This document shows positions 37 through 20,667 of a stretch of DNA of 64,000 nucleotides, piece after piece. The DNA is taken from NCBI GenBank assembly GCA_009837445.1, contig VXTM01000026.1, positions 1 to 64,000 of the forward strand. The letters are read 5' to 3'. Positions within the stretch are counted from its first letter, which is position 1. Every line of letters starts with the position of its first letter. Source of the stretch: Acidimicrobiaceae bacterium (GTDB taxonomy: Bacteria; Actinomycetota; Acidimicrobiia; Acidimicrobiales; Aldehydirespiratoraceae). The translations under genes and the position numbers were made by a program. The notes below the pieces were generated by a model that was given only the letters and a program-made list of their open reading frames with translations, was not told the DNA's origin and did not search any database.

Positions 37-1800
37 TCACAGGTCCAGCACCAGCCGGTCGGAGGCGGCCCGGGACACGCAGGTCATGATCCGGTCGCCG
101 GCCCGGTGCTCGGAGTCGTTGAGGTAGACGTCCTGATGGTCGGGCTCGCCCTCCAGCACGGTGGCCACGCACGTGCCGCAGGCTCCCTGCTCGCACGACG
201 ACGGCATGATCACGCCGTGGCCCCGCAGCACCTCCAGGATCGTGGCGCCGGCCGGCACGGTCACCGTCATCGCCGAGCGGGCCAGGGCCACCTCGAACGT
301 CGACGAGTCGTCGATCTCGTTGGTGTTCTTGAAGTACTCGAAGTGGACGGCCTCGTCGGGCCAGCCCGCCGCCGAAGCCTCCCGCCGGACCGCCTCCAGC
401 ATCGGCCCCGGACCGCACACGTACAGGTTGGCGAAGCTCTCGTACGAGGCCACCAGGCGCCGGATCTCGGCCACCGTCTCGTCGGGCGACATCCCCAGGT
501 GGCGCACCACCGAATCGCCCAACCCGTCCACCACCTCCGAAAAAGCGACATGCTCGGCCGACTGGACGAAGCAGTGCAGCTCGAACGGGAGGGACATGCG
601 GTCCAGCGCCTGGGCCATGGCCAGCAGCGGCGTGATGCCGATGCCGCCGGCCACCAGGACCGTCCGCGTCGAGTCCCGGCGCAGCGGGAAGTTGTTGCGG
701 GGCTCGGAGATGGCCAGCACGTCACCCTCCCGCACGGTCTCGTGCAGGCAGCTCGACCCGCCGCTGGAGTCGGGCTCCAGCTTCACGCCGATGCGGTAGC
801 TCGCCGACTCGCCGGGGCCGTTGGTGATCGAGTACTGGCGCACCAGACCGTTGGGCAGGTGCACGTCGATGTGCGCCCCCGGCTGGAACGTGGGCAGCAC
901 CCCCTCGATCGGGGCCAGCTCGAAGGCGGCCACCCCGGCCGCGGCCCCCCACTTGCGCTGCACCTGCACCCGCAGCGCGGGCTGGCGGCCCGCCGGCGCG
1001 TCCGGCACCTCGGCCAGATGCAAGGGCACCTGCTGGAGCGCGGGAACCATCGGCTCGGGGGCGGGCAGCGAGGTGGCCTCGGCCTCAATCGCCACCCGCA
1101 ACTGGTCCAGCTCGGTGGCGTGGTGCCGCCAGACGGCCAGCTGCTCGCCGGCGGGCGGCGCGCCGGCCAGCACACCCCGGATCACGCAGCGCCCCGAGTC
1201 GACCGGCTGCACGAAGAACACCACGGTGGACTGGGCGTCGCCGGCCCGGGCGGTGAGCGTCACCGAGTAGTCGGAGACCCCGTCGACGGTCATCGACGGC
1301 GCCTCCGCGTCGAGGCGCCCGCAGGGCGCGAAGCGGTGGGACTGCAAGTGCCGCACGGCCAGCGACACCGACGCGTTGACCGGCAGGTTGCGCAGCCCGA
1401 ACGGCGTCCCCGCCTCCAACACATCGACGGCCGGCGGGTCGCCCGCCGGCGATTCGCCCGACCAGACCAGCCCGTAGCGCTCCACCGAGGAGAAGGTCCG
1501 GTTGCATATGGTGCGGGCCGGCGCGTCGGCCGGATGGGCCGGGATGTAGGTGCAGCCCGCCGACCGGTTGGCGTAGCGCCAGCCGTGGTACTGGCAGCGC
1601 AGCTCGGTCCCGTCGTTGGAGCCGATGGAGAGGCGCACGCCGCGGTGCAGGCAGCGGTTCTCCCACACGTTCACGTAGTCGTCGTCGGCCCGCCACACCG
1701 CCAGCTCCCGGCCCAGCAGCTGGGCCTGGTGGACATGGCGGTAGGGCACGTCGTGCGCCGACGCCACCGGATGCCACATGGTGAACGGATCGGCTGTCAC
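37..1800 (-). CDS. Rieske-reductase fusion, NdmD-like electron-transfer subunit
   Basis: A 587-aa protein with two redox modules. The N-terminal Rieske domain has ligands C50, H52, C69 and H72. The C-terminal phthalate-dioxygenase-reductase-like module has a flavin motif RQYS at 321-324, an NAD-binding GGIGITP at 385-391, CGPGPM at 462-467, and plant-type 2Fe-2S cysteines C536, C541, C544 and C574. Residues 110-270 lack the D-x2-H-x4-H mononuclear-iron motif, so it should carry electrons and not oxygenate. NdmD, the reductase of the caffeine N-demethylase system, has the same extra N-terminal Rieske domain and similar length. The start is GTG with GGGAGG eight bases upstream. It lies 114 bases downstream of the cluster-less catalytic subunit on the same strand and is its likely partner. 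It may also feed the other Rieske oxygenases nearby, since no other reductase gene is visible. Role confident; substrate inferred. Confidence 0.88.
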   Translation of the reverse strand: MTADPFTMWHPVASAHDVPYRHVHQAQLLGRELAVWRADDDYVNVWENRCLHRGVRLSIGSNDGTELRCQYHGWRYANRSAGCTYIPAHPADAPARTICNRTFSSVERYGLVWSGESPAGDPPAVDVLEAGTPFGLRNLPVNASVSLAVRHLQSHRFAPCGRLDAEAPSMTVDGVSDYSVTLTARAGDAQSTVVFFVQPVDSGRCVIRGVLAGAPPAGEQLAVWRHHATELDQLRVAIEAEATSLPAPEPMVPALQQVPLHLAEVPDAPAGRQPALRVQVQRKWGAAAGVAAFELAPIEGVLPTFQPGAHIDVHLPNGLVRQYSITNGPGESASYRIGVKLEPDSSGGSSCLHETVREGDVLAISEPRNNFPLRRDSTRTVLVAGGIGITPLLAMAQALDRMSLPFELHCFVQSAEHVAFSEVVDGLGDSVVRHLGMSPDETVAEIRRLVASYESFANLYVCGPGPMLEAVRREASAAGWPDEAVHFEYFKNTNEIDDSSTFEVALARSAMTVTVPAGATILEVLRGHGVIMPSSCEQGACGTCVATVLEGEPDHQDVYLNDSEHRAGDRIMTCVSRAASDRLVLDL

Positions 1801-1914
1801 GGGGTCACCCTCCCTGCCCGCTCAGGCCGACGAACAGGATGCCGGCTGCCTGGGACGAGCTTGAAGCGAACTGCGACCAGATGATAAGAACCAGTTATCA
1901 CCCTGTCAAAGCTC

Positions 1915-2832
1915 TCATGCCGCTGGTATCACTCCGTAGGTGACGCCGAGGTCGCTGAGCCAGCGCCGGTAGAGGATCGACGCCCGGTCGGACCGGATCG
2001 GGGTCTCGGCCTGCGGATCCAGCGGGAGCCGCTTCGGATTCTGGTTCTCGATGATGGGCAGGTCCTGGGCGAAGATGGTCTGCACGAACCGCCGGATGAG
2101 CCCGACGCTGCTCTCGTCGTCGATGAGGCTCAAGAACATGTGGCCCCGGCAATGCTCTTCGCTGGTGGCCTGCACGAACAGCCCGATCAGGTCCATCCGC
2201 TCCGGTGCCGCCGGGCACGACTTGTAGAGCAGGATCGAGTAGGGCTGCATGATCCGGTAGATGTACTCCACCATCTGGCCCCCGGTGGCGCTGGCCGACG
2301 CGGCCGGCTGCCAGAACTGGCACTCGGTGGCCCAGATCTCGTTGGTGTCGCCGTCGACGTGGACGTTGTAGTCGACCACCTCGGTGCGGGGCTCCGAGCC
2401 CAGATACCCGTCATGGACGAACGGGAAGTGGCCCATGTCGAGGAAGTTCTCGACCGCCCGGGGCGCGGAGGTGTACACGCCGAGCGTGCACGCGTTGAAG
2501 TTGCGCCGGTCGGGCTCGAAGAACTCCGGGATGTGGAAGGACCCCTCGGGCGGGTCGCCCAGACTCGTCCACACGTAGAGGAACTCGCAGCGGCTGGGCA
2601 GCGTGCCGGTCACCGACCCGGGGTCGACGGGCATGCCGGCGGGCAGGTCGCGGCGGGTCCGCCATGCGGCCGAGCGGCCCTCGGGCGTGACCGCGAAGCT
2701 GATCGACTCGCCCAGGAGCCGGGTGACGTGCACCACGTTGGGCTCGGCCTCGTCGACGGCGCCAACCGGATGCCACTGGTCCAGGACCGCCCGGTTCTGG
2801 CACTGGCCGTTCGCGCCCGCCATACCAGCCAT
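1915..2832 (-). CDS. Rieske-less oxygenase catalytic subunit, NdmC-like
   Basis: A 305-aa protein related to the catalytic half of VanA/NdmA-type Rieske oxygenases. It keeps the mononuclear-iron motif with D132, H135 and H140 in ENFLDMGH-FPFVH, and a probable third ligand D257 in the AQDLPIIENQ segment. The N-terminal region starts like the family (QWHPVG) but contains neither C-x-H nor C-x2-H, so it cannot hold a Rieske cluster. In caffeine-degrading Pseudomonas, NdmC has this form and draws electrons from the Rieske domain of NdmD; the next gene downstream encodes such a protein. The start is the ATG at 2832 with GGGGAGG upstream. Its promoter region is shared with a divergent XRE-cupin regulator and holds a perfect inverted repeat. 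Likely an N-demethylase; the substrate (perhaps an N-methylpurine) is inferred. Confidence 0.85.
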   Translation of the reverse strand: MAGMAGANGQCQNRAVLDQWHPVGAVDEAEPNVVHVTRLLGESISFAVTPEGRSAAWRTRRDLPAGMPVDPGSVTGTLPSRCEFLYVWTSLGDPPEGSFHIPEFFEPDRRNFNACTLGVYTSAPRAVENFLDMGHFPFVHDGYLGSEPRTEVVDYNVHVDGDTNEIWATECQFWQPAASASATGGQMVEYIYRIMQPYSILLYKSCPAAPERMDLIGLFVQATSEEHCRGHMFLSLIDDESSVGLIRRFVQTIFAQDLPIIENQNPKRLPLDPQAETPIRSDRASILYRRWLSDLGVTYGVIPAA

Positions 2833-2861
2833 GCAGGTTCAGCCTCCCCGGTGCCGCCATC

Positions 2862-2880: not shown

Positions 2881-2926
2881 ACTGCGGTTTGTACCACGCT
2901 CGGGCTCGCCAAGGGAACACCGCGCC

Positions 2927-3490
2927 ATGCCTGATGACTTGGGCCACCAGATCGGGGCCAAGGTCAGGGCCATCCGCGCCGAGCGGGGGCTGTCGGGCCG
3001 CAAGCTGGCCGCGGCCGCCGACGTGAGCCAGCCGTTCCTCAGCCAGCTCGAAGCCGGGCGCACATCGGTAGCCATCGCCACGCTGTACCGCATCGCGGCG
3101 GCCTTGGACGTGCGACCGTCCGACCTGCTACCCGATCCGCCGTCGGGCACCCGGGTCGAGATCCTGAGGGCGGCCGAGCTCAACCAGATGCAGGTGAGCG
3201 AGCTGCCCAACGCCACCACCGCTCGCACCGCCTACCGGGGCGGGCGGCGCATCACCGAGCTGGGCGACTTCCGGATCGAGCCCGGGCCCGACGTGGACGA
3301 GTGGTTCGAGTCCGCCGACGAGACCGTGATCTATGTGATCGAGGGATCACTGCATGTGGAGTTCAGGGACCGGCCCGACGTGATGCTCGACACCGGCGAC
3401 GTAATGTTCCATTCGGCGTGGGTTCAGACCCGCTGGCGCCTGGCGTCGGAGTCGCCCGCCAGGGTGATACTGGTGGCAGCCGGAGGCTGA
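2927..3490 (+). CDS. XRE-family regulator with C-terminal cupin domain
   Basis: A 187-aa protein. Residues 8-66 are a helix-turn-helix of the XRE/Cro type (GLSGRKLAAAADVSQPFLSQLEAG), followed from about residue 100 by a cupin beta-barrel (a single cupin core ending HSAWVQTRW...). Proteins of this build usually sense a small catabolite through the cupin and control a neighbouring catabolic operon. The ATG at 2927 is chosen because the protein then begins at a normal distance from the HTH. It is divergent from the Rieske-less subunit and co-directional with the purine-deaminase-like gene 53 bases downstream, so it may control both sides. Confidence 0.85.
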   Translation: MPDDLGHQIGAKVRAIRAERGLSGRKLAAAADVSQPFLSQLEAGRTSVAIATLYRIAAALDVRPSDLLPDPPSGTRVEILRAAELNQMQVSELPNATTARTAYRGGRRITELGDFRIEPGPDVDEWFESADETVIYVIEGSLHVEFRDRPDVMLDTGDVMFHSAWVQTRWRLASESPARVILVAAGG

Positions 3491-3543: not shown

Positions 3544-4566
3544 ATGGGCTCCGTAGAGGACCTGATCCACTCGATCCCCAAGGCTGAGCTCCACCTGCAC
3601 GTGGAGGGCACCCTCGAGCCGGAGCTGAAGTTCGCTCTGGCCGAGCGCAACGGCCTCGACTTGCCCTACGGCGGCGTGGAGGGGATGCGGGCCGCCTACG
3701 ACTTCGACGACCTGCCGTCGTTCCTGGCCCAGTACTACGAGGGCATGAGCGTCCTGCTGGTGGAGGAGGACTTCTACGACCTGGCCATGGCCTACTTCAC
3801 CAAAGTGGCGAGCCAGAACCTGGTGTACGTGGAGATGTTCTTCGACCCCCAGGCCCATACCACCCGGGGCATCGAGTTCGGCACGGTGATCACCGGCCTG
3901 CGCCGGGCCCAGGCCGACGCCCAGCGGCGCCTCGGCATCCGCTCGCACCTGATCATGTGCTTCCTGCGGGACATGTCGACCGAGTCCGCGGCCGAGACCC
4001 TCGAGCAGGCCACCGAGTACCGGGACTGGATCCTCGGCGTCGGCCTCGACTCCGACGAGCGCAACAACCCGCCCATCAAGTTCCGCGACGTGTACGCCGA
4101 CGCCCGGGCCCAGGGCTACCGGCTCACCATGCACTGCGACGTCGACCAGGAGAACTCGGTGGCCCACATCTGGCAGTGCCTCAACGACATCGGCGTGGAG
4201 CGCATCGACCATGGCGTCAACTGCCTGGAGGACGAGGCCCTGGTGGCCGAGATCCAGCGCCGGGGACTGGGCCTCACCGTGTGCCCGATCTCCAACGCCT
4301 ACGTGACCGACGGCACCAAGGCCGCGGCCATCAAGTCCATGCTGGAGCGGGGGATGCGGGTCACCGTCAACTCCGACGATCCGGCCTACTTCCCCGGCTA
4401 CATCGCCGACAACTTCATGCGGGTCCACGACGAGGTCGGCCTCAGCGCCGAGGAGGTGGTGCGGCTGGTGCGCAACTCCTTCGAGATCAGCTGGCTGGAC
4501 GACGACAGCCGGGCCGAATACTTGCACCGGGTCGACGCCGTGGCCGCAGGTTCCGGGGCTTCCTAG
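3544..4566 (+). CDS. adenosine/adenine deaminase family amidohydrolase
   Basis: A 340-aa protein of the adenosine/adenine deaminase family (usual length 330-350). Zinc ligands H17 and H19 lie in ELHLHVEG, and IDHG (H223) and NSDDPAYF (D278/D279) are present. The NSDDPAYF form is more typical of adenine deaminases of the Aah1 type than of adenosine deaminase. The usual HAGE motif reads HCDV (H197-V200), so the catalytic glutamate is missing at its normal place, and specificity or chemistry may differ. GGGAGG lies seven bases before the ATG; an in-frame GTG sits directly before it. It is followed by an AdeC-like gene and a Rieske oxygenase in one operon. Probable role: hydrolytic deamination of a modified adenine or related base. 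Confidence 0.8.
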   Translation: MGSVEDLIHSIPKAELHLHVEGTLEPELKFALAERNGLDLPYGGVEGMRAAYDFDDLPSFLAQYYEGMSVLLVEEDFYDLAMAYFTKVASQNLVYVEMFFDPQAHTTRGIEFGTVITGLRRAQADAQRRLGIRSHLIMCFLRDMSTESAAETLEQATEYRDWILGVGLDSDERNNPPIKFRDVYADARAQGYRLTMHCDVDQENSVAHIWQCLNDIGVERIDHGVNCLEDEALVAEIQRRGLGLTVCPISNAYVTDGTKAAAIKSMLERGMRVTVNSDDPAYFPGYIADNFMRVHDEVGLSAEEVVRLVRNSFEISWLDDDSRAEYLHRVDAVAAGSGAS

Positions 4567-4568: not shown

Positions 4569-6350
4569 GTGGTTGAGCAGCCCCCGATCTCCGAGCTGGT
4601 GGCCGCGGGCGCGGCCCGCATCCCGGCCACGACCGTGGTGCGGGGCGGCCGGCTCGTCAACGTAGTGTCGGCCGAGGTCTATGAGGCCGACGTGGCGGTG
4701 TACGGCAACACCGTGGTGGCGCTGGGCGATGTGTCGGCCCACACCGGTCCGGACACCGAGATCGTCGACGCCGCCGGCCGCCACCTGGTGCCCGGACTGT
4801 TCGACGGCCACCAGCACATCGAGTGCTCCAAGCTGTCGATCACCAGCGCGGCCAAGATGCTGGTGCCGCTGGGGACCATCAACGTGGTGTCGGGCCTGGA
4901 CCAGATCCTGGTGGTGGCCGGCCTCGACGGCGCCGAGGCCTTCCTGCGGGAGTCGCAGGGCACCCCGCTGCGGGTGCTGTGGGGCGCGCCCTGCAAGACG
5001 CCCTACACCCTGCCCACCTCCACCGTCGGCCACTACTTCGGACCCGACGACCACCGGGCCGCCCAGAGCTGGCCCGAGTGCGTGGGGGTGTGGGAGACCG
5101 TCCGGGAGTTCGTGACCACCGGCGACCCCGACGTGCTGGCCGCCATGGAGATCGCCCGCCAGAACCGGCTGCCGGTGCTGGGCTGCGCGCCCATGGCCAC
5201 CGGAGCGGACCTCACCAGTTACGCCTGCGGCGGCATCCGCCTCGACCACGAGAGCTACGACTCCCACGAGTGCCTCGAGAAGCTCCGCAACGGCATGTAC
5301 ATCGTGATCCGGGAGTCGTCGTTCGCCCACTTCCTCACCGAGAACATCCGGCTGGTGCTGGAGCACGCGCCGGGCTCGGCCCGCCGGGTGAGCTTCTGCA
5401 CCGACGACGTGGTGGCCTCAGATGTGCTCGACCGGGGCCACCTCGACAACATGGTGCGCATGGCCGTCGACGCCGGCGTCGACCCCATGACGGCCATCCA
5501 GATGGCCACCATCAACGGCGCCGAGGCCTACCGGGTGGACCACATGGTGGGCTCGATCTCGCCGGGCCGCTACGCCGACATCCTCTTCGTGGACGACCTC
5601 GACGACTTCCGGCCGTCGATGGTGATGGCCGGCGGGCAGGTGGTAGCCCGCGACGGCGAGATGACCATCGACCTGAAGCCGCCGAGCCGTGACGGGCTGC
5701 TGACCGGCCCGTTCCCCATGGCCCCCGCGGCCGCCGAGGACTTCGCGGTGCGCACCGGCCTGCCCGACGGCCCGGTGGAGGTGCTGGCCATCGAGGTGAC
5801 CGAGCAGATCTTCGTGCGCAAGCGCCGCGACGTGGTGCTGCAGGCGGCCGGGGGCCGGGTGCAGCCCGACATCGAGGCTGACCTGGCCCTGGTGAGCGTG
5901 GTGGAGCGCTACGGCAAGAACTCGAACCGCCCGACCGCGTTCGTGGCCGGGTTCGGGCTCCGCTCCGGCGCGCTGGCCACCTCCAGCGCCCCCGACGACA
6001 ACAACATCGTGGTGATCGGGACGTCGCCGGAGGACATGGCGGCAGCCGTCAACCACATCGCGGCCCACGGCGGGGGACAGGTGGTGGTGGACGGCTGCGA
6101 GGTGGTGGAGTTCCTGCCCCTGCCCATCGGCGGGATCGTGTCCGACCTCGACCCGCCCGACATGCTGGCCGAGGAGGAGCGGCTCGACCGGGCGGCCAAG
6201 GCGCTGGGCTGCACGGTGGACTGGCCGTTCATGTACCTGTTCTTCCTGCCCATCACCTCGATCCCCGACTACGCCATCACCGACGTGGGCACCGTCGATG
6301 TGGCCGCCATGGACACCTTCGACCCGGTCCTCGGACCAGCGGCGGCATGA
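4569..6350 (+). CDS. AdeC-like adenine deaminase family amidohydrolase
   Basis: About 593 aa from a GTG start three bases after the upstream stop; translational coupling is likely. The metal-site segment PGLFDGHQHIE (H81, H83) matches the AdeC motif, and FCTDD (276-280), the GHLDNMVRMAVDAGVDPMTAI segment and a C-terminal AdeC domain are recognisable. The AdeC segment that normally reads GHAPG is GCAPM here (C206), replacing a conserved histidine, so the substrate may not be adenine. Adenine deaminases convert adenine to hypoxanthine and ammonia; an N-methylated or otherwise modified purine is plausible given the neighbouring Rieske gene, with which it overlaps by four bases. Confidence 0.8.
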   Translation: MVEQPPISELVAAGAARIPATTVVRGGRLVNVVSAEVYEADVAVYGNTVVALGDVSAHTGPDTEIVDAAGRHLVPGLFDGHQHIECSKLSITSAAKMLVPLGTINVVSGLDQILVVAGLDGAEAFLRESQGTPLRVLWGAPCKTPYTLPTSTVGHYFGPDDHRAAQSWPECVGVWETVREFVTTGDPDVLAAMEIARQNRLPVLGCAPMATGADLTSYACGGIRLDHESYDSHECLEKLRNGMYIVIRESSFAHFLTENIRLVLEHAPGSARRVSFCTDDVVASDVLDRGHLDNMVRMAVDAGVDPMTAIQMATINGAEAYRVDHMVGSISPGRYADILFVDDLDDFRPSMVMAGGQVVARDGEMTIDLKPPSRDGLLTGPFPMAPAAAEDFAVRTGLPDGPVEVLAIEVTEQIFVRKRRDVVLQAAGGRVQPDIEADLALVSVVERYGKNSNRPTAFVAGFGLRSGALATSSAPDDNNIVVIGTSPEDMAAAVNHIAAHGGGQVVVDGCEVVEFLPLPIGGIVSDLDPPDMLAEEERLDRAAKALGCTVDWPFMYLFFLPITSIPDYAITDVGTVDVAAMDTFDPVLGPAAA

Positions 6351-7324
6351 GCGAGCCGGCCGAACTGGACGTCCTGAGGCGGCACTGGCATCCGGTGGCC
6401 CGCTCCGACGCCATCGACGACGGTCCGGTCGGGGTGGTGATGCTGGGCCGGCGGTTGGTGGTGTTCCGCAGCGGCGGTGAGGCCTGCGTGGCCTCGGACC
6501 GCTGCCCCCACCGGGGCAGCCCGCTGAGCCTGGGCTCCTACGACGGCGACTGCCTGATGTGCCCTTACCACGGCCTGCGCTACGCCGCCGACGGCCGCTG
6601 CGTGGCCTTCCCGGCGCGTCCCGACGCCCGGCTGCCGAAGCGGCTGACCCTCGACACCCTCCGAACCCGGGAGTGCCACGGTCTGGTGTGGGCCTGCGAG
6701 GGCGAGCCGGCCGCCGACGATCCGCCCGCCTGGGGGTTCTACGACCGACCCGATGTGCAGGCCTTCCAGATCGGCCCGGTGCGCTGGGACGCCTCCGCCA
6801 GCCGGGTGGCCGAGAACTTCAACGACATCGCCCACTTCTCGACCATCCACCGGGTTACGTTCGGGCCCAGCGACCGCCCGGTGGCCCCCCAGGAGGTGGT
6901 CGCCACCGACACCGGCTTCGCCTCCAATATCAGCGTGTTCCAGCAGTACCGCAACACCCTCGACGGCTCGGTGGAGGAGGTCGAGGCCGCCTACCGGTAT
7001 GACTTCACGTTCCCGTTCTCGTCGATGCTCACCATCACCTACCCCGACGGCGAGATCGAGTGCATCCAGATGACGGCGCTGCCCGAGTCGGCCACCTCCA
7101 GCCTGGTGTTCCAGCAGAGCGCCCGCACCAACCTGGGCGGCGACCCGCTAGAGCCGTGGCGGGACTTCCAGGATGCCGTCAACGACGAGGACAGGGTCAT
7201 CTGCGAGGCCCTGCAGCCCCGGGAGGTGTCGTTCGGCCTGGACAGCAGCGGCGAGGTGGCCCTGCCCACAGACGTCTTCTCCATCGCCTACCGGCGCCTC
7301 TGGAAGTCCCTCTGCTCCACCTAG
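6347..7324 (+). CDS. Rieske oxygenase, NdmA/VanA-type
   Basis: A 325-aa Rieske non-heme-iron oxygenase. The Rieske ligands are C53, H55, C72 and H75, with standard 16-residue spacing between the pairs. The mononuclear-iron motif is D160, H163, H168 in ENFNDIAHFSTIH. Proteins of this subgroup do oxidative N- or O-demethylation (NdmA/B, VanA, DdmC) and need a separate reductase. Its start overlaps the AdeC-like gene by four bases (ATGA), so it is cotranscribed with the two deaminase-like genes. The only reductase in the window is the Rieske-reductase fusion at 37-1800, which is a candidate electron donor. It converges with the GcvT-like gene that ends 40 bases away. Confidence 0.9.
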   Translation: MSEPAELDVLRRHWHPVARSDAIDDGPVGVVMLGRRLVVFRSGGEACVASDRCPHRGSPLSLGSYDGDCLMCPYHGLRYAADGRCVAFPARPDARLPKRLTLDTLRTRECHGLVWACEGEPAADDPPAWGFYDRPDVQAFQIGPVRWDASASRVAENFNDIAHFSTIHRVTFGPSDRPVAPQEVVATDTGFASNISVFQQYRNTLDGSVEEVEAAYRYDFTFPFSSMLTITYPDGEIECIQMTALPESATSSLVFQQSARTNLGGDPLEPWRDFQDAVNDEDRVICEALQPREVSFGLDSSGEVALPTDVFSIAYRRLWKSLCST

Positions 7325-12167: not shown

Positions 12168-13297
12168 CGGCTGCCAACCTCGACCCGGGTGATCCGGACC
12201 CGGTACCGGATGAAGAACTGGGCTCCGGCGACACAGAGCAGGATGATGCCCTGTATCACGATCACCACCGCGGGCGAAACGCCGAAGATGCTCAACGACG
12301 GGGCGATGCTGAGCAACGCTCCCATCAGGAAGGCGATCGGCACCACCAGCAGCGGCTTCAGCAGGGCGACCGCGGCGACGACGATGCCGACGAATCCCAG
12401 ATTGACCGCTATGGCCCGGGGTTCGAGCGCGAACGTGATGCTCATCACGAACGTTCCACCGGCGATCCCGGCGAGGGCTCCCGAGACGGCGAAGACCGAG
12501 ATGATCTGGCGGGTCGCGCTGATCCCCGCGTAGCTGGCCGCAGCCCGGGAGTCCCCGGCCACCCGCAGCTGGTAGCCCCACACCGTCCTGCGGAGCGCGA
12601 GGGCGACGATCAGCGCCAGCGCCAGCGAGATAATCAGCCCCGCATCGAACACTCCGAAATAGGGATCCAACTGGGCCGACTCCGGGATGACCTTCCCGGC
12701 TGGGAATCCCAGATTGGTGCGATCCCGCCAGTAGCTGACGCTGCCGTAGATCAGGTAGTTCATGATCCCTAGGGCGACGAAGTTGAGCATCAGGGTGGTG
12801 ACCACCTCGTCGGTTCCGAACAGGGCCCGCGGCACGGACGCGAGCGTGGCCCAGGCCGCTCCGCCGAGGGCGGCGGCAATAACGACCGCGGCCACTGCCA
12901 GCGGAGCGGGAAGCGAGGGGCCGAGCACCAGCGCCGCGGCCGCACCGGCCACCGAGCCCGCGATGAGCTGGCCCTCCGCGCCGATTGACCACAGGCCCAT
13001 GCGGAAGCAGACGGTGACCGCCAGCCCGGTGAGGATCAGCGGCGTGGTCGACCGCAGGGTCTCACGGAGAGCCCGGGACGAGCCGAACGCCCGGTCGAAC
13101 ATCTCGCGGTAGACGTCGAAGGGATTGTCACCCGCCATCAGCAGAAGGATCGCTCCGAGTCCGAACGCCAGGACCAGAGCGACGAGGTTGACGCCCAGCT
13201 GCTGGAGGAAGCGGGACGCGGCCCGCTGCTCAACCGTGATGGGAATGTGCCAGCGGCCACTCCGTGGGGCGGCACGGTCGACGGCGGGCGCCGTCAT
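12164..13297 (-). CDS. ABC transporter permease, BMP/nucleoside type (first)
   Basis: A 377-aa inner-membrane permease with about ten hydrophobic segments and a short cytoplasmic N-terminus. The stretch SIGAEGQLIAGSVAGAAAA matches the conserved EGQ-containing loop of this family, and LRVAGDSRAAASYAGIS resembles the EAA-like ATPase-contact loop. It overlaps the upstream ATPase gene by four bases and the downstream permease by four, so all three are made together. Expected to import nucleosides or nucleobase-like compounds with its partners. Confidence 0.9.
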   Translation of the reverse strand: MTAPAVDRAAPRSGRWHIPITVEQRAASRFLQQLGVNLVALVLAFGLGAILLLMAGDNPFDVYREMFDRAFGSSRALRETLRSTTPLILTGLAVTVCFRMGLWSIGAEGQLIAGSVAGAAAALVLGPSLPAPLAVAAVVIAAALGGAAWATLASVPRALFGTDEVVTTLMLNFVALGIMNYLIYGSVSYWRDRTNLGFPAGKVIPESAQLDPYFGVFDAGLIISLALALIVALALRRTVWGYQLRVAGDSRAAASYAGISATRQIISVFAVSGALAGIAGGTFVMSITFALEPRAIAVNLGFVGIVVAAVALLKPLLVVPIAFLMGALLSIAPSLSIFGVSPAVVIVIQGIILLCVAGAQFFIRYRVRITRVEVGSR

Positions 13298-14859
13298 GTC
13301 ACGCCTGCCATCCAGCGCCCGACTTGAGCCACATCGACTTCGGATGCCGGCCGCGACGCCACGATCCGACCCTCGTACATCACGACCACCTCGTCGGAGA
13401 TTCCGAGCACCTCCTCGAGATCCCCCGAGAAGAGGAGGATGCCCACGCCCCGGCCGCGTTCGGTCTTGAGAGTGGTCCGGACCGCTTCGGCCGCCCCGAC
13501 GTCAAGGCCGCGGGTCGGCTCCGACGCGACCAGCAGGGCGGGCTGCCGTGACAGCTCGCGAGCGAGGATCAGCCGCTGGAGGTTGCCTCCCGACAGCACG
13601 CTGATCGGCAGGCCCTTGCGCACGCCGCGGATATCGAACCGATCGATCAGACGTCGAGCCCATTGCCTGATCGCCGACAGCCGTAGGAACGGCCCGATAC
13701 TGAACTCCCGGTCTCGCTGGCTCCTCAGCAGCACGTTGTCCTCGATCTCCAGTCCGAGAACCAGGCCCCTCGTCAAGCGGTCCTCGGGAACGAATCCCAT
13801 CCCCTTGTTGATCCTGCTGCCGATCGTCTGCGATGAGATGTCCTCGCCCCGGAGCCTGATCGTGCCCGACGTCGTGGTGCGGAGCCCGGTGATGACCTCC
13901 GCCAACTCGCGCTGGCCGTTCCCGGACACGCCGGCCACCCCCACGATCTGGCCTGCCCTCACAGTGAGACTCACGTCGTCGAGTTCGGGGCGCGTCGCAG
14001 CGTCGCTGACGACCGATACCGAGTGCAACTCCAGGAGTTTGTCTCCGGTGGTGTGGGATGCGTCGACGCCGGATCCCGGTGCGAGGTCGTCGCCGATCAT
14101 GAGTCTGGCCAGGTCGTGGGTGGTGGTGTCCTCGACGCCTTGGTGAGCGACTTTCTTCCCGGATCGCAGGACCGTCACGGTGTCGGCGGACTGCTGGACC
14201 TCGCGCAGCTTGTGGGTCACGAGAATCACACCCTGGCCCTGGTCGGCGAGGTTCCGGAGTGTCGCGAACAGGGCTTCAGCCTCGCGGGGGGTCAGCACGG
14301 CCGTCGGCTCGTCGAGGATGAGGACCTTCACGCCGCGGTTGAGGAGACGGATGATCTCGGCCTGCTGCTTCTCGCCGACGGCAAGGTCAGCGACATACCT
14401 GGTCGGCTCGATCCACAGGCCGTGCCTGTCCATGACCTCCCGGGCGCGGTCGGCCAGCCCGCTCGCGGTCATCCTGACCGGCACGTCGGGATTGCCGAGC
14501 AGGATGTTCTCGGCGACGGTCATCTGCTCCACCAGCCGGAAGTGCTGGTACACCATCCCGACGCCGGCCTCCAGGGCCGCGTGCGGGGAGTGGGGACTGT
14601 AGGGGGCTCCGGCCAGCATCATCTCGCCCCGGGTGGGGTGGTACAAGCCGGCCAGGATCGAGCACAGCGTCGATTTTCCGGCCCCGTTCTCGCCCAGCAG
14701 GGCGTGGATCTCGCCCCAACGAAGGTCGAAATCCACGTCCTCGAGGACGGACTGGCCGAAGAAGTCCTTGGAGAGGCCGCGTGTGCGGACGGCAGGCTCC
14801 AAGACCTGTCCTAGGGCCTGTTGATCCCCCGCGGTACGGGAGTGCGGGGGTTGTGTCAC
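13294..14859 (-). CDS. ABC transporter ATPase with two nucleotide-binding domains
   Basis: A 521-aa tandem ATPase of the RbsA/MglA/PnrA-importer type. The first domain has a normal Walker A GENGAGKST (about 56-65), a degenerate signature AVGEKQQ, and Walker B LILDEPTAVL. The second has a non-canonical P-loop (GVSGNGQRE) but a good LSGGNLQR signature, the asymmetry usual for this class. The GTG start directly follows the stop codon of the lipoprotein gene, and the 3' end overlaps the first permease by four bases. It energises the importer encoded around it. Confidence 0.92.
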   Translation of the reverse strand: MTQPPHSRTAGDQQALGQVLEPAVRTRGLSKDFFGQSVLEDVDFDLRWGEIHALLGENGAGKSTLCSILAGLYHPTRGEMMLAGAPYSPHSPHAALEAGVGMVYQHFRLVEQMTVAENILLGNPDVPVRMTASGLADRAREVMDRHGLWIEPTRYVADLAVGEKQQAEIIRLLNRGVKVLILDEPTAVLTPREAEALFATLRNLADQGQGVILVTHKLREVQQSADTVTVLRSGKKVAHQGVEDTTTHDLARLMIGDDLAPGSGVDASHTTGDKLLELHSVSVVSDAATRPELDDVSLTVRAGQIVGVAGVSGNGQRELAEVITGLRTTTSGTIRLRGEDISSQTIGSRINKGMGFVPEDRLTRGLVLGLEIEDNVLLRSQRDREFSIGPFLRLSAIRQWARRLIDRFDIRGVRKGLPISVLSGGNLQRLILARELSRQPALLVASEPTRGLDVGAAEAVRTTLKTERGRGVGILLFSGDLEEVLGISDEVVVMYEGRIVASRPASEVDVAQVGRWMAGVT

Positions 14860-16110
14860 TTAGCCGATCTCGCCCTGGACGCCCTCGATCACCCACTCGC
14901 AGCAGATGGCGCGACTGAAGAAGTCAAGGGACTCGCCCTCGGGTACGACGATGTTGCCGTCGCGGTCCACTATCGGACCGGCGAACACATCCAGGTCACC
15001 GGCGGCGATGTCCGCGATCAAGCTGTCCACCAGATCTTGGGCCTCGGCGGGAACCGACGGCCCGAACTCGGCGTAGCCGAGGAGCTCGTCGGCGTAGCCG
15101 CCGTAGATGTATCCGGGTTCCCAAGTGCCCGCGGCTACCTCCTGCGCGGTGGTCACGAAGGCCGCACCCCAGTTGTAGAGCGACCCTCCCAGCCACGAGT
15201 CGGGCGCCTGGAGGCGGGCGTCGTCGTACCCGTATCCGATGAACCCGGCGCCGCGCTGAGCGGCCACTTCCGGCACCGCGGACGACGACAGGTCATAGGT
15301 GAGAACGTCGACACCGAGATCGATCAGGGCGTTGGCCGCTTGAAGCTCGAGACTGGGATCGAACCAGTCGTTGGTGAACACCACATGCACCTCGGCGTCG
15401 GGGTTCACCGAGCGGGCGCCGGCCGCGAACAGGTTCAGCGGCTTGAGCACGAAGGAGATCCCGAATCCCGCCACGTAGCCGAGCTGGCCGGTCTCGCTCA
15501 ACGAGGCGGCCAGCGCGCCGTCCACGTACCGGGCCTCTTCCACCGCCAGGCAGTACTGGCCCATGTTGGCGGTGACGGTGGCGTCGCAAGCATGCAGGAA
15601 CGCGGTGTCGGGATACTCCGCGGACACGATGGCCATGTCGGCGTCATATGTGGCGGTGCCGATGATCAAGTGGTAGCCGTCCTCGGCAAGGTCCGTCATC
15701 GCCCGCTGAGCAGACTGCCCAGGGTCGATTGCCTCGACCCTGAGGACCTCGGCGCCAGGCATCGAGTCCTCGAGAAGCTGCGTCCCCGCATCCATCGAGC
15801 CTTGCCACCCGCCCTGGTCGAGCGTTCCGTCATAGATCACCGCAATCCGCATCCCAGTGCCATCCGACGCGTCCAGAGTGTCGGCAACCTCCGTGGGCGC
15901 CTCGGGCACGGTGGTCGTCACTTCAGCGGGCGCTTCAGGCGCGGCGGTGGTCGTGGTTTCGGGCGCTTCAGGCGCGGCCGTGGTCTCAGGCGCCGCCGCA
16001 GGCGCCTCAGGCTCCGCGGCCGGTGCGTCCTCGGCGTCGTCCCCGCAAGCTGCGGCCACCAAGCACAGCGTCAGAGCGGTGGCTAGCCACCCTAGGGTTT
16101 TCCCTCTCAT
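14860..16110 (-). CDS. BMP/PnrA-family substrate-binding lipoprotein
   Basis: A 416-aa secreted lipoprotein. The signal peptide ends in a lipobox LVAAAC with C22 as the lipidated cysteine; residues 23-80 are a flexible Ala/Pro/Glu/Thr linker; the rest is a BMP (basic membrane protein) periplasmic-binding fold (IAVIYDGTLDQGGWQGSM, GFIGYGYDDARLQAPDSWLG). PnrA-type members bind purine nucleosides; the family also includes receptors for other small ligands. It is first of the transporter genes, 48 bases after the GntR gene. The receptor should define what the island consumes, so its ligand is the key unknown. Confidence 0.9.
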   Translation of the reverse strand: MRGKTLGWLATALTLCLVAAACGDDAEDAPAAEPEAPAAAPETTAAPEAPETTTTAAPEAPAEVTTTVPEAPTEVADTLDASDGTGMRIAVIYDGTLDQGGWQGSMDAGTQLLEDSMPGAEVLRVEAIDPGQSAQRAMTDLAEDGYHLIIGTATYDADMAIVSAEYPDTAFLHACDATVTANMGQYCLAVEEARYVDGALAASLSETGQLGYVAGFGISFVLKPLNLFAAGARSVNPDAEVHVVFTNDWFDPSLELQAANALIDLGVDVLTYDLSSSAVPEVAAQRGAGFIGYGYDDARLQAPDSWLGGSLYNWGAAFVTTAQEVAAGTWEPGYIYGGYADELLGYAEFGPSVPAEAQDLVDSLIADIAAGDLDVFAGPIVDRDGNIVVPEGESLDFFSRAICCEWVIEGVQGEIG

Positions 16111-16158: not shown

Positions 16159-16932
16159 TCAGCGCGTCCATCGCCTATAGAGGTGAATGGGCACCGCCTG
16201 CGCATTCACGAACGCTTTCGAGAGAACGACCGGAGCCTCGTCCTCCACGCTGAAGAACACGTCGTCGAGTTGCAGCAGCGCGGCGCCCGGTTCCACCTGC
16301 AATCGCCGAGCCACAGCCTCCGGCGCGTTGGCAGCGCTTGTGCGCGACTCCACATGAGCGATCTCCAGGCCGCTGCACTGCCGCACGATGTCGCTCATGA
16401 GCATCGAGCCGTCAATCTCGTTGACCGGCCCTTCGAAGCGATACGGCGGTACTACGTCGTTCGTGAGGGCCACGGGCCGGTCGCCGCCGGAGAACAAGCG
16501 CAGGAACTCGAATACGCGGCCCGGCAGCTGCATCCCGAGTGATCTCGCTTCGTCATCGGTCGCTATCCGCTCGGTCGCGGTGAGCGCCGCGATCCGGGGC
16601 TGCAGGCCCGCAGCCTCGATGATGGACTGCATGTCCCACGAATCGGCGATGTAGGGCTGAGCCGCAGGAGCGCGACGGGACACGAAGGTCCCCTCGCCGT
16701 GTTTGCGCATCACCTGCCCCTGCGATTCGATCCTCGCCAGCGCGGTGCGTACTGAAGCGCGACTCACCGAGAGCTCCGAGGCGAGGTCGCTTTCCGACGG
16801 GAGTTGGTCGCCGGGGCCGTAGACCCCGTAGCGGATCCGCGACAGGATCACGTCCGACACCTGGTCTGCGATTGGTGGTGTGCGTACTACCGGAATAGCT
16901 CGGCCCTGTCTCGGTGCCGTGGCGAGCGCCAT
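16159..16932 (-). CDS. GntR/HutC-family regulator with UTRA domain
   Basis: A 257-aa regulator. Residues 20-90 are a GntR winged helix (DQLPSESDLASELSVSRASVRTAL), and residues 95-250 are a UTRA effector domain that shares the chorismate-lyase fold and binds small molecules. It lies upstream of and on the same strand as the importer/GcvT/amidohydrolase genes, so it is probably the first gene of that operon and autoregulated. The ligand is probably the imported compound or a breakdown product; this is inferred from position. Confidence 0.87.
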   Translation of the reverse strand: MALATAPRQGRAIPVVRTPPIADQVSDVILSRIRYGVYGPGDQLPSESDLASELSVSRASVRTALARIESQGQVMRKHGEGTFVSRRAPAAQPYIADSWDMQSIIEAAGLQPRIAALTATERIATDDEARSLGMQLPGRVFEFLRLFSGGDRPVALTNDVVPPYRFEGPVNEIDGSMLMSDIVRQCSGLEIAHVESRTSAANAPEAVARRLQVEPGAALLQLDDVFFSVEDEAPVVLSKAFVNAQAVPIHLYRRWTR

Positions 16933-17033: not shown

Positions 17034-18266
17034 CTACCCCGCGGCTCGCCTCATCGGTAGGAACGGCAACTCGACAATGGTTCCTCCAACCGCGTGCTCC
17101 TCGCCCATGACGTCCCACCCGAGGGTCACGCCGGTGCCCGGGTCGGCGGCGGAGGGGTGGATGTGGGCGAATCCAATTGCCTGCTCGACGGTAGGACTCC
17201 ACGTGACGCTGGTTGCATGCCCGACCCGCTCCTCGCCTTGGTAGATGGGTACCTGCGGGTCGCGATGCACTCGGGGCAGGATCACCGGCGGGCGACCGAT
17301 GTCGAGGTACACCTCGACGATGTCGCGCCAGTTGACGAGCACGCCGGCAAGTCGACGCGTCGCGGGAGCGTCCTTCGCCTTCAGGAGCGCTTCGCGGCCT
17401 ATGAACGCGGGCTTCTCGAAGTCGACAAAGTGGCCGAGGCCCAACTCGTAGGGCGTGACAAAGGCCTCCTCCTGCTCCGCGGTGGGATGGGCTGAGCGGT
17501 CAGGCCCGGCCCCGAGGTAGTCAGCGACCACGATCAGCAAGCCAGCTTCGATGCGGGCGACATCCTCGGCAAAGTGGCCGGCCGGGAGGAGACCGTCGGG
17601 CTCTCCGGCTTCCATCACCGCATCCCAGAGTGCTGGCGCGGACTTAGCCGGCACCCAGAACTCGTATCCCAACTCACCCGTGAATCCCTGTCTCCAGACC
17701 CAGACGTCGGTGCCGGCCACCTGGGTTTCGGTGCCTCGCGAGAACTTCAGATGAGACCAGTCCTGTCCGGTGAGGCGTTCCAGCACGCTCCTGGACCGGG
17801 GACCCTGCAACGCGAGCAGGCCGTTCGCCCCTTGGGTGTTCTCGATCTCCACGTCGAGGTCGGCAGAGCACTGCGCCAGCCAGGTCATCATCGGGTCGGC
17901 CGTCATGATGAAGCGGTTCTGTTCCAGGCGCACGACGATGCCGTCGCCGATCATCATGCCGTCGTGGTCGCACCAGGGTGAGTAGTACACCTGCCGGTCG
18001 GCCATGGTGTCGACCTGGCGGGTGATGATCCGGTCGACCAGCCGGGCCGCATCCCGGCCGGAGATGAGGTGCTGCGACAGCGGCGACATCTCGATGATGG
18101 CGGCACGATTGCGGATGGCGCCTACTTCCGCCTCGATCGTGCTGAACACGTCGACCAGGTGGAACTGGTCCCAGGACACCCAGCGCCGCCACTTGTTCAG
18201 CGGCGCGGTCCGTGAATTGAACGGGGTGCCCCCGAATGTGTAGACCTCGCTCAAGCTGTTGGCCAT
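17034..18266 (-). CDS. GcvT-like folate-binding protein (third paralogue)
   Basis: A 410-aa GcvT-superfamily protein. It shares SPLSQHLISGRDAARL, YYSPWCDHDGMMIGDG, MTADPMMTWL, LALQGPRS, RQGFTGELGYE and ATSVTWSP with the paralogue at 9992-11218. The ATG at 18266 is preferred because GGAGG stands eight bases upstream and the paralogues align from there. It is divergently arranged with the Rieske oxygenase at 18427, across a 160-base promoter region. That suggests a functional pair: Rieske-mediated N-demethylation with the C1 unit handed to tetrahydrofolate. Confidence 0.84.
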   Translation of the reverse strand: MANSLSEVYTFGGTPFNSRTAPLNKWRRWVSWDQFHLVDVFSTIEAEVGAIRNRAAIIEMSPLSQHLISGRDAARLVDRIITRQVDTMADRQVYYSPWCDHDGMMIGDGIVVRLEQNRFIMTADPMMTWLAQCSADLDVEIENTQGANGLLALQGPRSRSVLERLTGQDWSHLKFSRGTETQVAGTDVWVWRQGFTGELGYEFWVPAKSAPALWDAVMEAGEPDGLLPAGHFAEDVARIEAGLLIVVADYLGAGPDRSAHPTAEQEEAFVTPYELGLGHFVDFEKPAFIGREALLKAKDAPATRRLAGVLVNWRDIVEVYLDIGRPPVILPRVHRDPQVPIYQGEERVGHATSVTWSPTVEQAIGFAHIHPSAADPGTGVTLGWDVMGEEHAVGGTIVELPFLPMRRAAG

Positions 18267-18426: not shown

Positions 18427-19554
18427 ATGACAACCATCCCCGTCACCGGCGACACCGACTGGGCGCTGTCCAAGAACCAGAATCCGGCCGACCTGAGGGT
18501 CAACCGGATGGACGTCGAGGCCGAGACCCGCATCTACCGGGCGTTGAGGCACTTCTGGCATCCCGTCATCTATTCCGATGAGCTCGACGACGAGCCCAAG
18601 CAGGTCTGGCTGTGCGACGAGCAACTGGTGGCGGTGCGTCTCGACGGCGAGGCCGCCGTCTTCAACGACATGTGCGCGCACCGCGGCACCGCACTGTCAT
18701 TGGGCAAGGTGGTGGTCTCCGAGTGCGGCGAGACGCTGCAGTGCCCTTACCACGGCTGGCGCTACGCACCCGATGGGCGCTGCGTGCTGGCGCCCCAGCG
18801 CCCCGATCTCGCCGGGAGGCTGCGGGCCCGCATCAAGCGGCACAATGTGGTGGAGCGCTACGGCATGGTCTGGGTGTGCCTGGCCGACGAGCCCCATTTC
18901 CCGCTGCCGGAGTTCCCCCAGTTCGAGGACCCCTCCTATGACTGCGTGGCGGTCCCGTCGACGGACTGGGATCACACCTTCGCGGTGCGCCGTACCGAGA
19001 ACTACATCGATCCGGCCCATCTGGCCTTCGTCCACGACGGGTACCTGGGTGATTCCAGCGATCCGGCCATCCCTCGCCACGAGGTGTACCCGACGGCCCG
19101 CAACATCCTCCACATGAGGCTCAGCGAGCCCGCCCGGGAGCCGGCCGGCGCGGCCAAGAACAAGTCGATCGACAACGACAGCGAGTACATGGAGGTCATG
19201 AAGACCTGGGAGTGCTTCATGCCGCTGACGGTGCTTCTGCGATCGTTCAACCCGGCGGGCGAGACCTTCTGCCTGTTCTTCCATCCCACGCCGACATCGC
19301 CGACCACGATCCGCAACTTCACGATCGGCGCCCGCAACTTCGGCTCAGCGTCGACGATCTTCGAGGAGATCGCAGGCTGGAACAAGTTCGTCTACGAGCA
19401 GGACGAGCCCATCGTCTCCTCCCAGCGGCCCGCGCAGCTGCCCGAGGACCTGTCGATGGAGATGTTTCTCGCGGAGGTGGACATCTTCTCGCTGCACTAC
19501 CGCAAGTGGCTGCTCGAGTTGGCCGACGAACTAGTCCCCGCCGGCGCCGGCTGA
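18427..19554 (+). CDS. Rieske oxygenase with extended inter-ligand loop
   Basis: A 375-aa Rieske non-heme-iron oxygenase. The Rieske ligands are C83, H85, C106 and H109; 20 residues separate H85 and C106, four more than in the oxygenases at 6347 and 53522. The iron motif is D195, H198, H203 in ENYIDPAHLAFVH, followed by DGYLG. The FVHDGYLG stretch is identical in the Rieske-less subunit at 1915-2832, suggesting related active sites. About 30 extra residues precede the usual HFWHPV start of the family. It is divergent from a GcvT-like gene and convergent with another Rieske gene. Probable demethylase; needs an external reductase. Confidence 0.9.
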   Translation: MTTIPVTGDTDWALSKNQNPADLRVNRMDVEAETRIYRALRHFWHPVIYSDELDDEPKQVWLCDEQLVAVRLDGEAAVFNDMCAHRGTALSLGKVVVSECGETLQCPYHGWRYAPDGRCVLAPQRPDLAGRLRARIKRHNVVERYGMVWVCLADEPHFPLPEFPQFEDPSYDCVAVPSTDWDHTFAVRRTENYIDPAHLAFVHDGYLGDSSDPAIPRHEVYPTARNILHMRLSEPAREPAGAAKNKSIDNDSEYMEVMKTWECFMPLTVLLRSFNPAGETFCLFFHPTPTSPTTIRNFTIGARNFGSASTIFEEIAGWNKFVYEQDEPIVSSQRPAQLPEDLSMEMFLAEVDIFSLHYRKWLLELADELVPAGAG

Positions 19555-19584
19555 GCCGCGCCACTCAGAGGCCGAGGCGGGCTC

Positions 19585-20667
19585 CTAGGCGACCATCTCC
19601 GGCGCGCCGAGCCCGAACATCTCCACCAGGTCGCGGCGGTACCGGACCGACAGCCGGTCGGCCCGGATGTGGGTCTCGGCGGCCAGGTTGAGCGGCACGT
19701 TCTCGGGACGCTGGCTCTCGACGATCACGATGTCCTCGCTGTTGGTGACCAGCTGGTACTCGGCGTAGTCCTCCACGGTGGCGCCCGGGATGTTGGTCAG
19801 CGAGACCTGGTAGATGTCGGTGGTCCGGGCGCTGACGGGCGAACCGATATCGAAGAAATGGCTGGTGACGAAGCTCTCGCCGTCGTCCTCGTAGTAGTCC
19901 ACTTTCAGGTCGGTGGCGAACGGGTAGGTCAGGTGGTGCTGGTAGAAGACCTCACGCTCCCGCTCGCCGAGGTCGTCGTTGAAGCCCCGCTCGACCTCGA
20001 TGTAGGGCAGCGCCATGTACAGGCCGTAGTCGGTCTGCTCCAGCGTGTAGTCGGGCACGACGGGCCTGGCCCGGTTCCCGAACGTCTTCATGTGGACCCA
20101 GGAGATGTGGGCGATGTCGTTGAAGTTCTCGCAATGGCGGCTGGCGGTGGCAGCCCACGTGCCCTTCGGGATCTGGATCCTCAGCCATTCCGGCCCGAAC
20201 TCGTCGAGGTGCGGCCACTCGGGGAGGGGGCGGAGGGGCTCCGGCTTCATGCATGCCCACACGATCCCGTAACGCTCGGCGGCGAGATAGCTGAACAGCC
20301 TCATGGTCTTGGCCGGTGGGGGACTGTCGGGGTCGTTGGCGGGAATCCAGGTGCACTGGCCCGAGCGGTCGTAGTGCAGCCCGTGGTAGGGGCACACGAT
20401 GCAGGCACCGTCGTCGCTCATCCAGCCGTTGCTCAGCTTCGAGCCCCGATGCACGCAGAGGTCCCTGGCCACCGCCGCACCCTCGCTGGTGCGGTAGACG
20501 ACGAGGTCGACGTCGAGCAGCTTGGACGCCACCGGTCCGTTGGCCAGATCCGATGAGAACGCCACCGGATGCCAGAACCCGGCCAGGATGTGCCAGTCGC
20601 TCTCGCGTATCTCGGACCCTGCCGGGTACTCCGTCGCAGTTGAAGCTTGGTCGGTCGGCTCGTACAT
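19585..20667 (-). CDS. Rieske oxygenase, NdmA/VanA-type
   Basis: A 360-aa Rieske oxygenase. The ligands are C71, H73, C92 and H95 (18-residue spacing), and the mononuclear-iron motif is D184, H187, H192 in ENFNDIAHISWVH. NFNDIAH is shared with the oxygenase at 6347. The ATG has AGGAG six bases upstream. It ends 30 bases from the convergent Rieske gene and is transcribed from the 118-base gap beside the GH2-like gene. No reductase lies beside it. Probable N- or O-demethylase of the same island. Confidence 0.9.
   Translation of the reverse strand: MYEPTDQASTATEYPAGSEIRESDWHILAGFWHPVAFSSDLANGPVASKLLDVDLVVYRTSEGAAVARDLCVHRGSKLSNGWMSDDGACIVCPYHGLHYDRSGQCTWIPANDPDSPPPAKTMRLFSYLAAERYGIVWACMKPEPLRPLPEWPHLDEFGPEWLRIQIPKGTWAATASRHCENFNDIAHISWVHMKTFGNRARPVVPDYTLEQTDYGLYMALPYIEVERGFNDDLGEREREVFYQHHLTYPFATDLKVDYYEDDGESFVTSHFFDIGSPVSARTTDIYQVSLTNIPGATVEDYAEYQLVTNSEDIVIVESQRPENVPLNLAAETHIRADRLSVRYRRDLVEMFGLGAPEMVA

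Follow-up and report, generated by a model that had tools for sequence, protein, structure and literature searches.

A candidate island for the catabolism of N-methylated purines, with an NdmC/NdmD core and GcvT-like folate proteins, in an Acidimicrobiaceae genome

Positions 37–20,667 of the 64,000-nucleotide stretch analysed here (the window, which is the first 64 kb of the 125,521-base contig C51 in a 3.9 Mb Acidimicrobiaceae assembly of 52 contigs) carry a gene island that may serve the catabolism of N-methylated purine bases by combining NdmC/NdmD/NdmE demethylation with a folate arm of GcvT-like proteins. Judging from the sequence, we give this reading a probability of about one half. The ndmCDE core is already a known kind of system, and the folate arm is the variant part. 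Domain profile matches recovered all gene types that had been named for this interval in an earlier inspection of the letters (the sequence-only reading): one electron-transfer fusion (A; letters as in Table 1), two adenine/adenosine deaminase-like enzymes (D and E), a guanine/8-oxoguanine deaminase-like amidohydrolase (H), three GcvT-like folate proteins (G, I and O) and four catalytic Rieske oxygenase subunits (B, F, P and Q). The four subunits are present, but only F, P and Q have a Rieske domain of their own. The proposed nucleoside-type importer is a BMP-type ABC importer (J–M), and its receptor is nearest to the purine-base binders AtzT and 3S99, not to a nucleoside receptor. As the window starts at the contig end, the cluster extends beyond it.

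The NdmC/NdmD/NdmE core

B is Rieske-less and consists of a VanA_C domain only. Its probable iron ligands, a role that we assume for these residues, are H140 and D257, found in 12 of 12 aligned subunits, and H135, found in 11 of them. A is a reductase with an extra N-terminal Rieske domain, followed by Fer2; it is 40% identical to the NdmD-position protein of P. caffeinilytica, 35% to that of Klebsiella and mostly 56–65% to the rhizobial ones. B is 42–43% identical to its Klebsiella and P. caffeinilytica counterparts and falls into a clade (100/99) that includes the NdmC-position proteins of P. caffeinilytica, which we take to grow on caffeine, of P. putida pKF715A and of Klebsiella. The genome holds four Rieske-less NdmC paralogues (on C51, C21, C44 and C46).

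An NdmE-like GST stands directly beside NdmD in two related genomes (G007 and G009). In the genome under study, the 3,989-base contig C44 carries an NdmC paralogue, a Rieske protein and a GST in the order seen in G009; GST domains were found in the latter protein, which is 55% identical to the GST of the P. caffeinilytica locus. By synteny, the NdmE missing from the window would lie on C44, next to C51. Because synteny places an NdmE-type GST on this neighbouring contig, the core can be read as an ndmCDE-type module.

A scan of named genomes for NdmC gave 79 loci from the best 80 of 379 relatives, and 71 of these matched the NdmD query; flanks of up to 10 kb were taken, often cut by contig ends. 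These 71 loci contain a GST (68), a BMP receptor (53), at least two NdmC genes (48), an FrmA-type dehydrogenase (22), an ADA-like gene (9), an amidohydrolase (8), SHMT (8), AdeC (7) and GcvT (5). Many of them belong to Rhizobiales, in accord with the available text of a review (PMC4408171). Within the phylum, NdmD matched at 1e-60 in 2 of 396 sampled genomes, the present one included; the other match extends over no more than the reductase part, which makes the fusion rare in this sample.

Three loci deserve separate mention. On plasmid p1 of P. caffeinilytica (L132), an ndm-type locus stands between BMP-receptor and ABC permease/ATPase genes, so that methylxanthines may generally be imported by BMP systems. 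A contig labelled Dehalococcoidia (L054, DCAW01000073) has NdmC, NdmD and a GST and, after them, an adenine-deaminase-type gene with 73% identity to D; this gene set in the record of another phylum reflects either transfer or misbinning. Lastly, an NdmC homologue of G033 (L032:2403–3311) has arginine in place of the first presumed iron-ligand histidine and would be either an inactive copy or an assembly error.

GcvT-like proteins and their pairing with Ndm genes

The minus-strand run of receptor, ATPase, two permeases, GcvT2 (I), amidohydrolase and GcvT1 (G) has no gap above 40 bp, and two of the three GcvT genes therefore appear to lie inside the importer operon. In G, I and O alike, the residues matching Asp96 and Glu195 of T. 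maritima are retained, Tyr188 is Phe and Arg227 is lost; for these aligned residues we presume the roles that they have in T-protein. Among NCBIfam models, that of trimethylamine N-oxide (TMAO) demethylase fits G, O and the pSymA homologue described below best, with scores far under a cut-off that a single domain cannot reach, the model having 763 positions. For I, the general GcvT model comes first and TMAO demethylase second, and TMAO demethylase is the best solved relative. None of the three (scores for G, I and O, in bits) reaches the cut-off for DmdA (141, 141 and 136; cut-off 410), LigM (76, 89 and 94; 580), DesA (84, 114 and 96; 800) or the glycine cleavage T-protein TIGR00528 (144, 132.5 and 118; 235.85). 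An AlphaFold model of GcvT1 (mean pLDDT 63.5) has similar TM-scores to the T-protein, DMGDH, DmdA and LigM folds and does not discriminate between them, and the GcvT tree gives no resolution on whether the rhizobial and actinobacterial proteins form one clade.

Co-location of GcvT and Rieske genes in this genome exceeds chance. There are 19 GcvT-domain matches, of which 11 lie in frames below 520 aa and eight in longer ones; a VanA-type Rieske match occurs within 10 kb of 6/11 short-frame matches vs 0/8 long-frame ones. At least six near pairs arose in 93 of 20,000 random rotations, and with one GcvT per cluster the observed 4/8 was reached in 165 of 20,000 (true lengths were used for nine contigs, and 21 equal pieces stood for the rest). 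Two more islands with a VanA-type Rieske protein, GcvT and BMP importer lie on C39 (L125 and L126) and C36 (L128), the latter with an amidohydrolase as well. A count of molybdenum-hydroxylase matches in the genome gives 18, with three on C39.

Across genomes, the sequence-only reading had suggested a search for NdmC/D together with GcvT, and the tie does recur, in Acidimicrobiia, Microthrix and rhizobia, but in only 5/71 loci (10/71 when extended as described below); it is real but a minority variant. Among the eight genomes of the genus with NdmC of at least 75% (own included), GcvT is in the locus of five (G000, G007, G009, G010 and G012), two loci are on short contigs (G006 and G014) and one has no GcvT in the 20 kb examined (G004). 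GcvT1 lies upstream of NdmD on the same strand in G010 and G012, with 17 bp between the aligned stretches. The Candidatus Microthrix locus (L112) has GcvT1 between two NdmC genes, 9 bp behind the first, and in a Rhizobiaceae metagenome-assembled genome (MAG; L061) GcvT1 lies between a Q-type Rieske gene and a reductase.

A search of a plasmid collection with GcvT1 gave 166 records, and among the 30 matches listed only three, all from S. meliloti, exceed 33%. On pSymA of S. meliloti 1021, a 46% homologue of GcvT1 heads the order GcvT, MTHFR-like, PurU, aminotransferase, 2-hydroxyacid dehydrogenase, SHMT, AraC, NdmC, BMP importer, NdmC, NdmC, NdmD, followed by a GST and an FrmA-type gene. Five further rhizobial loci (L082, L095, L102, L103 and L119), picked for having HPR and SHMT at the margin of the fetched stretch, on the upstream side of NdmC, all show the order GcvT-MTHFR-PurU-AGXT-HPR-SHMT-NdmC-ABC, each with one such GcvT of 44–47% identity, 3.6–3.7 kb upstream. 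Of the remaining loci with SHMT, L096 differs in its SHMT arrangement and its only GcvT match, at 37%, lies elsewhere, L088 is without a GcvT match, and L114 was searched within its 8.9 kb only. Overall, 11 of the 20 genomes examined for this extension have a GcvT match at 1e-40 and nine have none. PurU scores above its curated cut-off. The aminotransferase is nearest to the aspartate-glyoxylate aminotransferase BhcA, under its cut-off, and the MTHFR match is weak (25.7 bits against a cut-off of 24), with no NCBIfam model matched.

The surroundings of other GcvT genes raise a different possibility, namely that these proteins are tetrahydrofolate (THF)-dependent N-demethylases, like DmdA, LigM and Dmt, of methylated and perhaps cationic purines, acting beside the Rieske enzymes and not after them. 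GcvT1 matches at 1e-80 in 16 of 395 genomes of the class. Nineteen GcvT neighbourhoods outside the window were scanned, with at most about 10 kb on each side and with several truncated at contig ends; the earlier-mapped G010 and G012 are not among them. A Rieske motif (by a regular expression that recovers all five Rieske proteins of the window) occurs in three, a BMP receptor in six and an H-like amidohydrolase (at least 44%) in nine. As 16 of the 19 are without the Rieske motif, some GcvT proteins may be demethylases of their own, and because the subfamily is found with purine-type import and deamination no less often than with Rieske genes, this explanation stays alive. It also gains from the distant MTHFR homologue that follows GcvT in 6/6 rhizobial clusters, expected if the product is 5-methyl-THF, and from precedents for transfer of methyl or methylene groups to THF in the accessible text of two papers (PMC9404685, PMC5547118). 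However, ten of the 19 neighbourhoods form one close clade, all among the 16 Rieske-less ones, which lowers confidence (the remaining nine have Rieske 3, BMP 6 and amidohydrolase 4), and GcvT1 is paired with NdmD or NdmC, in G010 and G012 outside the 19. The scores of G, I and O far below the DmdA, LigM and DesA cut-offs, the indifferent structure model and the faint MTHFR match also speak against it, and we consider direct demethylation somewhat unlikely.

One neighbourhood in the class (L169; G710, C110:13001–32900) has two GcvT genes, a BMP importer and an amidohydrolase and is without a Rieske motif. These are surrounded by five open frames of the MtmB family (monomethylamine methyltransferase) and one gene of the homocysteine S-methyltransferase family, which may point to a corrinoid route for N-methyl compounds.

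Purine enzymes and the receptor

The purine theme proposed at the outset is borne out by the adenine-deaminase-type enzymes and by the base-binding relatives of the BMP receptor, although nucleosides are less likely substrates than bases. The top solved relative of D is 3ou8 (320 bits), which we take to be the adenine deaminase PA0148, and D passes NF006850 (428 bits against a cut-off of 419). E, with 3nqb as solved relative, remains below the cut-off of TIGR01178 (343 against 472.5). No NCBIfam equivalog matches H above cut-off, and its relatives include atrazine-pathway proteins. Over the eight NdmC loci of the genus (own included), AdeC is present in 7/8 and D in 6/8; G004 has neither in the stretch seen and G010 is without D. 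The sequence HCDVDQ that D has for HAGE was rejected as a substrate-specific change, since it is also present in a Streptomyces homologue and resembles the HADIDQ of an L. reuteri one. The deaminase motif had no match when viral contigs were scanned with a DNA pattern.

The best solved relatives of the receptor M are AtzT (180 bits) and 3S99 (167 bits). According to the text available (PMC6834077), AtzT binds guanine with a dissociation constant (KD) of 0.11 µM and adenine with 2.5 µM, and 3S99 was modelled with adenine. M keeps the aromatic sandwich of AtzT as a Trp/Trp pair (Tyr45 replaced by Trp, Trp194 retained). The predicted site is compatible with a modified purine, without being proof of one.

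Another N-methylated heterocycle, such as trigonelline in rhizobia or a triazine or flavin-type ring, could also be the true substrate, with the deaminases recruited to it. Recruitment of purine-type proteins for triazines is exemplified by AtzT and the atrazine-pathway relatives of H, polar residues of the receptor site of M differ from AtzT, and rhizobial ndmCDE homologues are without known function in the review text (PMC4408171). Among the papers listed by a literature search on trigonelline catabolism in S. meliloti, none could be tied to these genes. However, the 73% relative of D also stands beside NdmC, NdmD and GST in the Dehalococcoidia-labelled contig, and AdeC and D recur at most NdmC loci of the genus (7/8 and 6/8), which makes such a substrate quite improbable.

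The Rieske oxygenases F, P and Q

NdmA heads the solved relatives of all three proteins; for F and Q, SxtT/SxtDIOX score almost as well, and HpxD is absent from the lists. The tree places F and Q with HpxD (100/99, with and without two long rows), and P has no characterised close relative there; an 81% copy of P is found in a second island, on C36. Forcing F and Q together with the Ndm-locus oxygenases gave an approximately unbiased test value (p-AU) of 0.016, and forcing P with them gave 0.045, values that are guides only because the constraint groups were named after the first tree had been seen; the Ndm-locus references were taken as NdmA/NdmB by gene position only. With F and Q in the HpxD clade, N-demethylation by each Rieske protein, as first proposed, is not supported, and F and Q are more likely ring hydroxylases or their relatives.

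Given the HpxD clade of F and Q and the two adenine-deaminase-type genes, the island could also be one for plain purine catabolism, in which deaminases and HpxD-like hydroxylases work together, NdmC/D is a hydroxylase too and the GcvT genes are bystanders. Only Pseudomonas NdmCDE are given a function in the review text (PMC4408171), which fits with this as well. However, NdmC, NdmD and GST stay together, the GcvT pairing is repeated across phyla and two GcvT genes sit in the importer operon; we therefore regard plain purine catabolism as very improbable.

Proposed pathway and its weaknesses

For the catabolism of N-methylated purines, the following course is proposed. The importer M, L, K and J would bring in a methylated purine base, and D, E and H, by their families, would turn amino-purines into oxo-purines. 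NdmC would take off one N-methyl group oxidatively, drawing on the Rieske-bearing NdmD as reductase and bound by the GST-like NdmE; N7 as its position is a guess from analogy with NdmCDE. F and Q would more likely be hydroxylases of ring carbons or enzymes for related methylpurines, and the fused NdmD may serve both. The GcvT-like proteins would transfer the freed one-carbon unit to THF, either by catching formaldehyde or a hydroxymethyl group from the oxygenase or, for some of them, by taking the methyl directly. In rhizobia, the pairing with PurU, SHMT and glyoxylate-type genes means that the methyl carbon could be combined with ring-derived glyoxylate into serine.

A more specific version is possible and is offered tentatively: NdmC/D/E or GcvT would hand the N-methyl group to THF without free formaldehyde, and the rhizobial SHMT would join methylene-THF and glyoxylate-derived glycine into serine, so that one cluster would assimilate both parts. 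If true, the orphan rhizobial ndmCDE homologues, reported from Sinorhizobium and Mesorhizobium with function unknown in the review text (PMC4408171), would gain a function, and there would be a route to recover the methyl carbon of purine alkaloids. The common gene order with GcvT, PurU and SHMT, including that of S. meliloti 1021, makes this a concrete and testable proposal for rhizobial ndmCDE.

Several observations weigh against the proposed catabolism. B groups with rhizobial proteins (one S. meliloti copy) and its own paralogues, off the Pseudomonas/Paraburkholderia/Klebsiella sub-branch of NdmC, so that it may act at a different methyl position. M has changes at the polar purine contacts of AtzT (positions Ser97, Phe98, Glu165, Asn218 and Asn220). 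GcvT occurs in the flanks of only 5/71 NdmD loci (10/71 with the five rhizobial extensions), and a Rieske motif was not found in 16/19 further GcvT neighbourhoods of the class. OHCU decarboxylase has no match in the genome. Further, a mycothiol formaldehyde dehydrogenase scores above cut-off elsewhere in the genome, and the five rhizobial clusters and pSymA also hold an FrmA-type gene, implying that folate is not the sole outlet. The FrmA-type protein of L061 is above the cut-off for class III formaldehyde dehydrogenase, and the pSymA gene is 87% identical to it; no FrmA-type gene is among the assigned genes of the island, and no FrmA match was found in the Acidimicrobiia loci scanned.

Host and layout of the island

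The best named NdmC matches of the host are from Acidimicrobiaceae/Acidimicrobiia MAGs (75–92%), and such MAGs presumably come from sponges. If the host is marine, sponges and ascidians, from which methylated purines are known according to the text available (PMC5793054), are a plausible source of substrate.

The genes are arranged for transcription as B-A (minus), C-D-E-F (plus), the importer block from M to G (minus), N and O (minus), P (plus) and Q (minus). The starts of J, C and E were taken from translations. The homologue of the regulator C is kept beside NdmC in relatives. At Rfam gathering thresholds, the window yields only a tRNA and no riboswitch; of seven related loci one has a tRNA and a small RNA, and no riboswitch was found in any.

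Table 1. Genes assigned at 37–20,667 of the window
Gene	Product	Position	Strand	Basis
A	NdmD-like fusion, N-terminal Rieske, flavin reductase and plant-type ferredoxin (Fer2), 587 aa	37..1800	-	
B	NdmC-like catalytic subunit, VanA_C without Rieske domain	1915..2832	-	inside NdmC clade, 100/99
C	XRE-type helix-turn-helix regulator with cupin domain	2927..3490	+	PF01381, PF07883
D	Adenine-deaminase-type ADA family protein	3544..4566	+	PF00962; 3ou8; NF006850
E	AdeC-type adenine deaminase	4569..6350	+	PF13382, PF01979; 3nqb
F	Rieske/VanA_C oxygenase, HpxD clade	6347..7324	+	domains and tree
G	GcvT-like protein 1 (GcvT1)	7365..8579	-	
H	Amidohydrolase, 8-oxoguanine/guanine deaminase-like	8572..9969	-	
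I	GcvT-like protein 2 (GcvT2)	9992..11188	-	
J	ABC permease 2	11229..12167	-	PF02653; start set from translation
K	ABC permease 1	12164..13297	-	PF02653
L	ABC ATPase	13294..14859	-	PF00005, two stretches
M	BMP-family lipoprotein receptor	14860..16110	-	closest solved: AtzT (guanine), 3S99 (adenine)
N	GntR/UTRA regulator	16159..16932	-	
O	GcvT-like protein 3 (GcvT3)	17034..18266	-	
P	Rieske/VanA_C oxygenase, actinobacterial clade found beside GcvT/BMP genes	18427..19554	+	
Q	Rieske/VanA_C oxygenase, HpxD-side clade with rhizobial Rie3	19585..20667	-	

At 52,000–64,000, the window carries a further VanA-type Rieske protein (53522–54562), an S-Me-THD protein (57226–58293), a PucR-type regulator (60902–62509) and a periplasmic binding protein (62615–63835), perhaps a second ring-catabolic cluster.

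Comparison with known systems

The sequence-only reading held that known caffeine pathways release formaldehyde and are without GcvT-like proteins. The text of the caffeine review agrees, describing formaldehyde release with frmA/frmB and containing neither 'gcvT' nor 'tetrahydrofolate' in the part available (PMC4408171). The further suggestion of the sequence-only reading, an undescribed system, is too broad for the ndmCDE core, which is known. As to the folate arm, folate-coupled recovery of purine-alkaloid methyl carbon was not recognised in the open-licence literature searched (titles and abstract starts).

Among the closest known systems is ndmABCDE of Pseudomonas putida CBB5 (PMC4408171, as far as its text was available) and of P. 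caffeinilytica plasmid p1. The island has in common with it the Rieske-less NdmC, the NdmD with an extra Rieske domain, the GST-like NdmE, here placed by synteny, and companion Rieske oxygenases, and the P. caffeinilytica locus, too, has BMP importer genes at its sides. In contrast, the island is without FrmA/FrmB, has three GcvT-like proteins and two adenine-deaminase-type genes, and its F and Q branch apart from the companion Rieske proteins of P. caffeinilytica. Instead, F and Q share a clade (100/99) with HpxD of the Mo-independent xanthine hydroxylase HpxDE (Klebsiella and Erwinia, as annotated), although no separate HpxE stands beside either. M has the aromatic sandwich in common with AtzT and 3S99, its best solved relatives, but differs at polar positions. 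G, I and O belong to the same fold family as the GcvT domain of TMAO demethylase, T-protein, DmdA and LigM/DesA and keep the folate-site Asp and Glu; BrdA and Dmt belong to it by the descriptions in their papers, not by sequence comparison. Unlike these GcvT-fold systems, the three proteins of the island stand alone, lie in purine-type operons and score far below the NCBIfam cut-offs.

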